Notes under the pieces: generated by a model
Database searches by the model: none
What the model was told of the DNA's origin: nothing
What the model saw: the letters and a program-made list of their open reading frames with translations, nothing else
Assembly: GCA_012845835.1 (NCBI GenBank)
Contig: JABAKD010000002.1
Span: forward strand, 25,317,210-25,381,209
Direction: 5' to 3'
Length of the DNA stretch: 64,000 nucleotides
Source: Undaria pinnatifida
Taxonomy: Eukaryota > Sar > Phaeophyceae > Laminariales > Alariaceae
Made by a program: the position numbers and the translations under genes
Shown here: positions 47,606 through 50,434 of the stretch, in pieces
Numbering within the stretch: position 1 is the first letter of the stretch
How the letters are laid out: each line of letters begins with the position of its first letter

Positions 47606-48606
47606 GTAAGCGAGGCATGCATGTGCTTTTGTTACCGCAGTCTGGTGGCTTTATTTTGGGAGATTCTACGTTTGTTTTAGTTGCGGGCAGCAGTGCGGTG
47701 TTTTTTCTTGGCGCCAAGCTGCTGCTCGGTGCCCACTGGCCCACGCTTGAACTAGGTCCCGTATCGAGGCTACTCCCAAACAAACGCTACGCGCAGGCGG
47801 GGGTGCGTAGCAGCTTAGCTCGCCGAGAGGCTCATCTATGTCGGCGTGCTGCTGACGGGGAACTAAATACATCTTGTGATGGATTAGTTACCCCCACGTA
47901 AAAGCCCGGTTGCTTCGAAAATTCTCGTGTATTGCCGTCTTTCGTTTTGACCCTCCCGGCTTTCCACTTGGCCCCGTCCTATGCCCTCGATACTGAAATG
48001 AAATCGAACTCTCAAATGAACAAAAACTTTGTACTAGGTGAGCCCCGGCGGGGCACCACATGGCTTGGAAAACGAGTAGCGAAGCATGTGCCGTTTACCT
48101 GCAGGGCCTCTATGCCCTACTCGTAGTGCATCCGGCCACGCAGTCGGTGTTTTGGTGTCTTTCGTTAGGTCTGTTGCGCCCACGTTTTTTCGCGACAAAT
48201 CACTTGCAATTAGTATGTGGATGATTTTGCATCGGGATTAAAGATTATAAGGCAACCTCCCACCATTCGGACAAAACAACTTGCAATTAGTATCGAATGT
48301 TTGTTTTGCGGTGGGAAATCCTATTGTTCGGCGCGAAAGCACGAATGATACGTACGAATGGTACAGAAGAATTCGATTGCACCGCTTTCCCTGCCTCTCC
48401 GCGTCCCGGAGATCATCCTAAGAGATGCTTCTTGTGATCGATCGCCGTTTCGAGCAGGATTATCTAACAACTACCTTCTTCCCCCCATCCGACCCCCGAC
48501 TGCTCTCTGTCTTCACTTGTTTATGCCCATGCCCTCTCTTCTCCGACGCCTCCCCTTCTTTTTCCGCCTCTTGGCTGGTTCCGTGCCGGATGGGATATGC
48601 GAGCAG

Positions 48607-49058
48607 GTCGAAAAAAATGACCGAAAGCCGGCAGCTCTCCAAAAGCAACAGCCCACCTCGGCGACCCCCACAGCGGCGGCGGTGGCTACTCCTGTAGATC
48701 GAAGAATCACCATCACTGCTACTGCCCTCTCTCTCGACAACAGCGACAACCACAACCACGCTCCCGAAAACCCAGCCTCTCAGACCTCAGCCGTCGCTGC
48801 TGTCGCTGCTGCCGCTGCTGCCGCCGCCGAGGCCTCAGCAGCAGCAGCAGCAGCACTTGTGACAGAGGACGAGCAGCTGGCGTCGCCGGAGGGGGGGCAG
48901 GCAACTCAGCAAGGCGAGGGAGGGCAGCAGCGACCTCGGCCGGAGAACATCCCAAAGTTTGTCCGGGTTGGGTCTAAGGTTTGCTTCTCGACGGTTGTTG
49001 CCGCCGTCCTCATACCTTCCTCAGAGGACATCACCGCGGCATCCAAGAAAGAACTCTG
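48607..49058 (+). CDS. Gene 2, exon with low-complexity N-terminal region and conserved core
   Basis: Acceptor GCGAGCAG (48605-48606), donor CTCTG|GTGAGT. The frame is open back to an ATG at 48358, so an unspliced start there is the alternative; however, codons before 48607 do not look like protein. The exon encodes an Ala-rich linker (residues with AAVAAAAAAAAEASAAAAA) and then VRVGSKVCFSTVVAAVLIPS, SSEDITAASKKELW. This V-x-F-x-x-x-V...LIPS...LW pattern recurs, from memory, in many unassigned stramenopile proteins. Confidence 0.7.
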
Positions 49059-49298
49059 GTGAGTTGCGGTTTTTTGACCGCGCAAAGATAACGTCGAACG
49101 TTGAACACTGCACTCTCGTTTCGGGCTCAAAACACGTACAATTAACGTGAAGCACTTTTTCTCAGTTTGATGTGTTGACCTCTTGAAATTATTTTCATCC
49201 TTGTTTGTTTGGGACAAAGTACCAGAGATTATTGTGGATTTGTTTTTGCATGCATCCGTACTTGTAAAAGGATTTTTGTTGTATCATACAAGTGCATT

Positions 49299-49580
49299 TG
49301 GCAAACAACCTACATCTAACGCAGATTTTGTTTGACCCGCTGCTGCCGCACCAGCTGGTGCTTGTGCTGTAGAGCTCACCCCGTAGCACACCGCAATACG
49401 AACCAGGCATACAACCGCAGTCTCCCGCAACAAGGTACAGACGAAAAATTAGACGCCACGAAACGTCCGGCGCCCCGTGTATATGGACCCACGCATAAGG
49501 TGAGCTCTACAGCACAAGCACCAGCTGCTGCAGCAGCAGCGGGTCAAACAAAATCTTCATTAGATGCAGGTTGTTTGCCG
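49299..49580 (+). repeat. Inverted repeat A (82-base arms, 118-base loop)
   Basis: Left arm 49299-49380 and right arm 49499-49580 pair with few mismatches; both contain GTTTGACCCGCTGCTG or its complement and TAGAGCTCACC or its complement. No coding content. Confidence 0.85.
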
Positions 49581-49587
49581 ATTGCGG

Positions 49588-50128
49588 GAGACCCTATTTG
49601 CAGGACGGTCCTGCAACGAATTCTTGCAGGACCGGGAAACGCCTCCAGAACCACCCTCCACAAAACCATCAAAACCTACCCTCCCGAAAAACACACAACA
49701 GACAGCAGACAGCAGACCATCACACGAGACAGGACACGTTCGAGACCACGCCAAAGACCATGCCCCTTATGAATCTAATTGGCGGTAGGAAACTGCCCTT
49801 GGGCGAAGATGAGGACGTAGTATCCATCGGCGGGCAGTATCGTCGTCGATATAGACGACGACGACGATACTGCTGCCGCCGACGGATACTACGTCCTCAT
49901 TTTCCTACCGCCAATTAGATCCACAGGGAACATGGCCTTTGGCGTGGTCTCGGACGTGTCCTGTCTCGTGTGATGGTCTGCTGTCTGCTGTTGAGTGTTC
50001 TTCGGGAGGGTAGGTTTTGATGGTTTTGTGGAGGGTGGTTCTGGAGGCGTTTCCCAGTCCTGCAAGAATTCGTTGAGGACCCAGTCCCGCAAGAATTCGT
50101 TGCAGGACCGTCCTGCAAATAGGGTCTT
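49588..50128 (+). repeat. Inverted repeat B, giant hairpin (about 270-base arms, almost no loop)
   Basis: The arms meet at about 49857 (…TCGTCGTCGATAT|AGACGACGACGACGA). They pair along their whole length: for example CTATTTGCAGGACGGTCCTG at 49594 against its complement near 50110, and CCTCCAGAACCACCCTCCAC near 49650 against 50035. Differences are a 20-odd base insertion in the right arm near 50075 and an extra piece of similar size in the left arm near 49790. Confidence 0.9.
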
Positions 50129-50129
50129 C

Positions 50130-50434
50130 CGGAATAGCCTCAAGAGCCATGTATATGAAGGCATTTTTGTTCAGGCGACAACACGCAGAGCAAGGTGTAA
50201 AATCTACCGGGCAGACAGCAGTGGTAGCAAGAGACCAAGTAGACCGAACTAGACGCGTCTCCCAGCAGCTGTTCCTGCACCTAAAAACGAAGACCGCAAG
50301 AAAGAGCGGCCAATAATGGTACCAGGTATCACGTGGAGCATTATAAATAGTAACACACGTTACACCTTGCTCTGCGTGTTGTCGCCTTAACAAAAATGCC
50401 TTCATATACATGGCTCCTGAAGCTATTCCAAGCT
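50130..50434 (+). repeat. Inverted repeat C (about 72-base arms, 160-base loop)
   Basis: Left arm 50130-50201 and right arm 50362-50434 are near-perfect inverted copies, both with CATGTATATGAAGGCATTTT and CGACAACACGCAGAGCAAGG or the complement. It abuts inverted repeat B. Confidence 0.88.

Follow-up and report, generated by a model that had tools for sequence, protein, structure and literature searches.

A foldback Mutator-like element in Undaria pinnatifida with apparently inverted host flanks at both ends

The window, which is the whole 64-kb stretch of Undaria pinnatifida DNA analysed here, contains a chain of three abutting inverted repeats, A, B and C. We propose that this chain consists of a foldback Mutator-like element (MULE), B, and of host flank that has been flipped at both ends of B, with the far breakpoint doubled, a reading to which we assign a probability of about 0.62. 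Chains of abutting inverted repeats invite interpretation as nested elements or as assembly errors, and here the chain would instead be made up of one transposon and two apparently flipped flanks. The new feature is the apparent flipping of the flanks on both sides of B; local inversion processes themselves are already known. In the open-access literature, no transposon-end-anchored flank inversions with long inverted duplications were reported in the titles and abstract starts among the matches listed.

A (49294–49585, 292 bp), B (49586–50130, 545 bp) and C (50131–50429, 299 bp) abut base to base, without gaps. The arms of A are 87 bp long (80/87 identical) and enclose a spacer of 118 bp, and those of C are 70 bp long (67/70 identical), with a spacer of 159 bp. 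In B, the left arm (about 49586–49848, plus strand) and the right arm (about 49859–50130, minus strand) are identical at 232 of 248 aligned positions (93.5%), and are interrupted by four indels of 27, 4, 16 and 2 columns, the largest of which is due to a 27-bp tandem duplication in the right arm (50053–50109). The centre of B (49849–49858), placed by eye in a CGTCG/CGACG tract that could have primed fold-back, is about 10 bp of the 545 bp, and the inverted repeats thus account for nearly the whole of B. The three abutting repeats described in the earlier note were therefore confirmed, and the minimum-energy fold of the RNA, computed with no shuffle control, gave exactly three large domains, coinciding with A, B and C at the above coordinates. 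The arm lengths (82, about 270 and 72 bases) and spacers (118, about 0 and 160 bases) given earlier are close to our values of 87, about 250 and 70 bp, and 118, about 10 and 159 bp, respectively; the description of B as near-perfect was too strong.

A filtered scan of the 64-kb window (arms ≥40 bp, identity ≥85%, spacer ≤400 bp, low complexity masked) returned A and C as the sole spaced inverted repeats, which points to more than a chance occurrence. B is absent from this list because its gapped arms are only about 85% identical. No match to Rfam at gathering scores was found within the window. Arm divergence is similar in the three repeats (7/87 in A, 16/248 in B and 3/70 in C; chi-square p = 0.63), which would be compatible, in this small sample, with a single age. 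The 4–8% divergence of the arms also appears to disfavour an assembly artefact from a chimeric read, which would be expected to give near-identical arms.

B belongs to a dispersed family. Its 18-base end pattern, with one mismatch allowed, gave 287 matches in the 511-Mb assembly (142 forward, 145 reverse) and the reversed control pattern gave 0, and the genome-wide search showed the ends of B recurring at many places. Five long copies of about 9.1–10.6 kb were found, the left ends of which match B at 93–95% over about 280 bp, and the right ends over 86–91 bp, with a short further piece in four of the five. A 9-bp target-site duplication was recognised by eye in four of the long copies, and none at the copy on C1. 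A Pfam scan for transposase, covering two of the five (L009 and L010), identified a MULE transposase domain (PF10551) at L009:4185–4574 (E = 6.9e-12, 46.1 bits against a cut-off of 27.6), while the same region of L010 scored below the cut-off, at 15.8 bits. A SWIM-like match in L009 was likewise below the cut-off. Both copies contain a second ORF on the minus strand (7450–7965 in L009, 7411–7923 in L010), in which weak matches to ankyrin repeats scored below the Pfam cut-off; judging from these matches, it may be an accessory gene or one that was captured.

A target-site duplication of 8–10 bp, usually 9 bp, flanks 77 of 83 complete copies (68 exact, and 9 with one mismatch, a few of which may be due to chance because small offsets were allowed in the search); six copies have none. 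The 83 copies are 86 loci, the window included, minus L042, L056 and L114, at each of which a single end was recognised. The 86 loci comprise the best matches of the genome-wide search, the zero-mismatch matches among the 100 of 287 listed, and the window, and are not a random sample. L009–L017 and L019–L021, which are long elements or single ends, stand outside this count. Taken together, the dispersed copies, the target-site duplications and the MULE domain place B in a Mutator-like family. The presence of dispersed copies with a coding partner had been named earlier as the sign of an ordinary transposon, and B is accordingly a transposon.

The terminal inverted repeats are about 92 bp long in L009 and L010 and about 41–49 bp in the short copies, compared with arms of about 250 bp in B. 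Alignment of the right arm of B to L010 covers 251 columns (89%) at the left end of L010 and 76 columns at its right end. The left end of the long copies is matched by both arms, which makes B a foldback derivative with one end present twice. These alignments identify B, at the level of sequence, as a non-autonomous foldback derivative of a Mutator-like element. The left arm contains an ATG at 49760, a candidate start, the counterpart of which lies in frame inside ORF 309–758 of L010. No target-site duplication adjoins B, and displaced candidate copies of one match at 8/9 positions.

Other palindromic sequences were noticed in or near copies of the family. L018 (C20) contains at 555–1300 a foldback copy of 746 bp with two left ends, arms that are 98% identical and an inner palindrome of 133 bp. 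It carries a flanking 8-bp target-site duplication and, by eye, has a centre different from that of B. It seems to be a second palindromic derivative that moved as such. Near short MULE copies, self-complementary stretches of 600 bp (98%; L049, 1527–2126) and 509 columns (95%; L092, 1894–2401) could be true palindromes or self-complementary simple repeats.

The origin of A and C was approached through L026 (C22), a short copy without an adjacent target-site duplication, which has an inverted repeat starting at its right end. The arms of this repeat are 49 bp long, including 3 bp of the element, and the spacer is 137 bp; the repeat is present on one side only. The flank of L026 sits in a dispersed repeat, R, for which there were 909 first-look candidates, 40 of which were scored. 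Eight R copies were aligned, and L095 and L098 were used as references. Read against R, the locus consists of R 1–77 forward, the element, R 254–71 reversed, and then R from 217 forward, this last stretch running to 254 against L095 and to 321 against L098. The order of these segments shows that the stretch adjacent to the element is inverted, and the far breakpoint (R 217–254 and a few bases) is present twice, as the two arms. The left flank of L026 ends in TATAGATTC, and the outer spacer edge carries the reverse complement of this sequence, lacking 2 nt. On these matches, the second target-site duplication of L026 is shifted, in inverted form, to the outer spacer edge, and comparison with R identifies the locus as an inversion with a duplicated far breakpoint. 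Template switching is the cause suggested for this inversion. Microhomology at the joins amounts to 3 bp in L026, and none was seen by eye in A or C. Inside the element, L026 carries a run of TTAGGG-type telomere-like repeat (386–691). Most of the R copies L095–L102 remain similar across the whole of the aligned 324 bp or so, and R is therefore probably longer than this.

A flank inversion of the type seen in L026 predicts for the window that one 9-bp sequence should be found, inverted, at both outer spacer edges, perhaps with a few terminal bases of B. The outer arm of A (49294–49380), 92% complementary to 49499–49585, would be left flank in its original place and orientation, the orientation being assigned by analogy with L026. 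It is followed by CC (49381–49382), the reverse complement of the first two bases of B, which fits an inverted segment starting 2 nt inside B, and by GTAGCACAC (49383–49391, minus strand), a putative displaced and inverted target-site duplication of B, with an 8/9 match to 50350–50358 at the predicted edge. The rest of the A spacer (49392–49498, minus strand) would be inverted host flank, of which no other copy was found, and the inner arm (49499–49585, minus strand), an inverted copy of the outer arm, is joined directly to B. On the other side, the inner arm of C (50131–50200, minus strand), again an inverted copy of its outer arm, is joined directly to B. It is followed by a C spacer segment (50201–50349, minus strand), a presumed inverted host flank with no other copy found, by GTAACACAC (50350–50358, minus strand), the other putative displaced and inverted target-site duplication, at the predicted spacer edge, and by G (50359), the reverse complement of the last base of B, which fits the junction model. 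The outer arm of C (50360–50429), 96% complementary to 50131–50200, would be right flank in its original place and orientation.

The window thus shows an 8/9 target-site match together with 3/3 of the expected element bases. In a Monte Carlo test, 101 of 400,000 random position pairs from 44–54 kb did as well (2.5e-4); the match was sought after L026 had been seen, and the random draws allow for the offsets tried. A looser test, in which all 9-mer pairs up to 4 bp from the edges were counted and the element bases were ignored, gave P = 0.012. Alternative placements of the target-site match gave 5 to 7 of 9, and the best match at the inner spacer edges was 5/9. No other copy of the flanks of the window site was found in the genome that would give its ancestral state. 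Given that the putative target-site duplication is displaced and that the repeats are anchored exactly at B, we infer, by analogy, that A and C would have arisen as the repeat of L026 did, by flank inversion.

To survey the family, 144,645 bp of flank around the 83 copies was scanned as untruncated sequence, with spacer-less palindromes, repeats below 85% identity and low-complexity sequence left out. A, C and the L026 repeat were the three spaced inverted repeats to pass the filter. Each starts at an element end, and each is at a copy without an adjacent target-site duplication. With the window left out, as it was chosen for its repeats, one repeat remains, that of L026, and it is anchored; the scar is present at 2 of the 83 loci, one of them the starting point. 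No such repeats were found in the flanks of L028, L037, L066 and L075, which also have no target-site duplication. Likewise, no anchored inverted repeat was found in about 820 bp of sequence to each side of the long copy on C1 (L013/L014), at which no target-site duplication was seen by eye. L027 has an inverted repeat (626–668 and 856–894; 45 columns, 78%) starting 4 bp outside its right end. This copy has a target-site duplication and its repeat is below the 85% filter; the repeat could be an older case or due to chance. With L027 below the filter, the link to missing target-site duplications is drawn from three repeats. L018, a longer and cleaner palindrome than B, has its target-site duplication and no such flank repeat, which argues against hairpin strength alone as the cause.

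Without masking, other flank inverted repeats were found away from element ends, for example at L086, 53 bp off. In a rougher test, for which the control positions were truncated, four hits at controls started near the moved boundary; we attribute these to the cutting of longer repeats. In L066, an exact reverse complement of the left 9-mer occurs at 1983–1991, 474 bp into the right flank, and in L075, a reverse complement of the left 9-mer with one mismatch occurs at 244. No arm duplication follows the 9-mer match in either copy, and L066 is possibly a simple flank inversion.

According to the proposed explanation, insertion of B would have produced an ordinary 9-bp target-site duplication. 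At some later time, or in a subsequent abortive reaction, the flanking host DNA would have been inverted, over 205 bp on the left and 229 bp on the right. The far breakpoints would have been copied twice, giving the arms of 87 and 70 bp in inverted orientation, and the target-site duplications would have ended up at the outer edges of the inverted segments. The trigger may have been a break or a replication stall at the element end, produced by a transposase cut or at the hairpin base, and either the cut site or the hairpin base would fix the proximal breakpoint. Repair would then copy the flank back from the opposite strand, before returning to the original template. We infer a break or stall followed by an opposite-strand switch as the mechanism. 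The flanks at both ends of B may have been flipped in one event.

One alternative is that A and C are two other MITE-like elements, which inserted by chance exactly at the ends of B. They resemble MITEs in size (292 and 299 bp) and in arm length. Searched alone against the 511-Mb assembly, A matched only itself, and so did C; a missing match is no proof of rarity. The genome search for other copies that had been proposed in the earlier note thus found none of A or C, and A and C as repeat families were rejected. No target-site duplications of A's or C's own were seen, the abutment is exact on both sides of B, no further spaced inverted repeat in the window passes the filter, and L026 has the same anatomy, made from flanking DNA. 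We consider this alternative very improbable. The suggestion of foldback elements holds for B, a foldback MULE; nested foldback elements are not supported for A and C. The suggestion of successive template switching came close for A and C, although the evidence favours host-flank inversions anchored on B over a serial chain.

Other routes to the same structure concern the mechanism. Plain snap-back synthesis, which leaves the spacer unflipped, predicts the target-site duplication at the inner spacer edges; it was rejected for L026 by the R alignment and is disfavoured for the window, given the 5/9 match there. In a two-step version, snap-back synthesis duplicates the flank in inverted orientation, and template switching or recombination between the arms then flips the spacer. 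Switching of template between the arms of an inverted repeat, accompanied by inversion of the spacer, is described for yeast in passages of PMC8604942, for spacers of a few bases. This version calls for two events, with the spacers of A, C and L026 all in the flipped state, and appears quite unlikely. Alternative (aberrant) transposition, in which the cut end or ends of B are re-inserted into the nearby flank and the stretch between is inverted, would account for breakpoints within 2 nt of the element/target-site border, where transposase would cut, and for affected copies having no adjacent target-site duplication. Inversions by alternative transposition of Ac/Ds are known (PMC8225341, in part), and this reaction leaves a normal short duplication (8 bp for Ac, same passages). 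The distal duplications here are about 46–49, 70 and 87 bp, not 9 bp, and ordinary alternative transposition is therefore disfavoured; we regard this route in general as unlikely. Staggered double-strand breaks, mentioned in the same passages of PMC8225341 as yielding inversions with inverted duplications, may also be a source.

A different kind of explanation is that the chain is a selected silencing locus, the hairpin being kept for the production of small RNAs against the long MULE copies, like Mu killer in maize. One element end is duplicated in inverted orientation in B, which is 93–95% identical to the long copies and reaches into one of their ORFs, and the same design, with two ends from one side, is described for Mu killer in passages of PMC3440606. 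A transcript of the chain would form a long double-stranded stem; the predicted minimum free energy was −466 kcal/mol (no shuffle control). By analogy with Mu killer, the long elements could in principle be silenced by the B stem; on this precedent a small-RNA role for B would be reasonable, and the hairpin is a candidate Mu killer-type silencer outside maize. Against selection, no constraint is evident, as the arms of B are 6.5% diverged and contain four indels. The survival of the palindrome, proposed earlier as a sign of function, finds no support here. In the ORF reached by B, which may lie outside the transposase gene, no Pfam family was found. In the host context, a plausible GT donor stands at the end of ORF 48358–49062, a search for an exon downstream of it identified none, and the gene 2 intron in which the earlier note placed the chain is a putative one. 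This ORF and 8 others from the same part of the window were without a Pfam match above the cut-off. We consider a selected silencing locus the most improbable of these explanations, and a selected function is not needed for the chain.

Inversion of host flank at both ends of B therefore remains our preferred reading. Tentatively, the ends of this MULE family may be sites at which neighbouring sequence becomes inverted and its far breakpoint acquires a long inverted duplication, a recurrent by-product that would arise either in transposition or as replication passes the element. If true, this would account for part of the copies without target-site duplications, and single insertions would become chains of inverted repeats. 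It would also link transposon ends to a local inversion process. The search for an inverted target-site duplication at the outer spacer edge is a rule usable in any genome.

Among known systems, Tm1, a MULE of root-knot nematodes (PMC3169594, in part), resembles the family of B in its long terminal inverted repeats and 9-bp target-site duplications, and in having short non-autonomous copies alongside long transposase-coding ones. Unlike Tm1, B contains one end twice, and has apparently inverted flanks with a displaced target-site duplication. MULEs with tandem terminal repeats, described in passages of PMC3310237, have a structure other than that of B. Mu killer is a derivative of maize MuDR, with both termini from the same element end, as in B (PMC3440606, passages). 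Unlike Mu killer, B is 0.55 kb long, with about 30 ORF codons per arm. The inverted flanks are a feature of B on which the Mu killer passages are silent.

In alternative transposition of Ac/Ds, the inversion starts at the transposon end, as here; the target-site duplication is 8 bp long in that system, according to the passages of PMC8225341, compared with inverted duplications of about 46–87 bp here. Small inverted triplications in yeast and cancer, for which a fold-back origin is proposed, have similar lengths in the part of PMC13334657 concerned, with a median duplication of 148 bp and an inverted fragment of 160 bp. They have the structure DUP/INV/DUP with direct flanking duplications, whereas here the arm is present twice, inverted, and the spacer once. 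In the four-point model of short-range template-switch mutation, as set out in passages of PMC7954356, an inverted copied segment between two switch points leaves inverted repeats, as here. Compared with the ancestral repeat R, L026 shows an inverted segment of the kind that this model expects, with template switching as the putative cause. Unlike the four-point cases, the present ones are anchored at transposon ends, have inverted segments of about 184–229 bp and would require an inter-strand switch; the same passages exclude an intra-strand mechanism for switches to a point ahead. By analogy with this model, an opposite-strand template switch would explain both the inverted segment and its repeated edge in one event.
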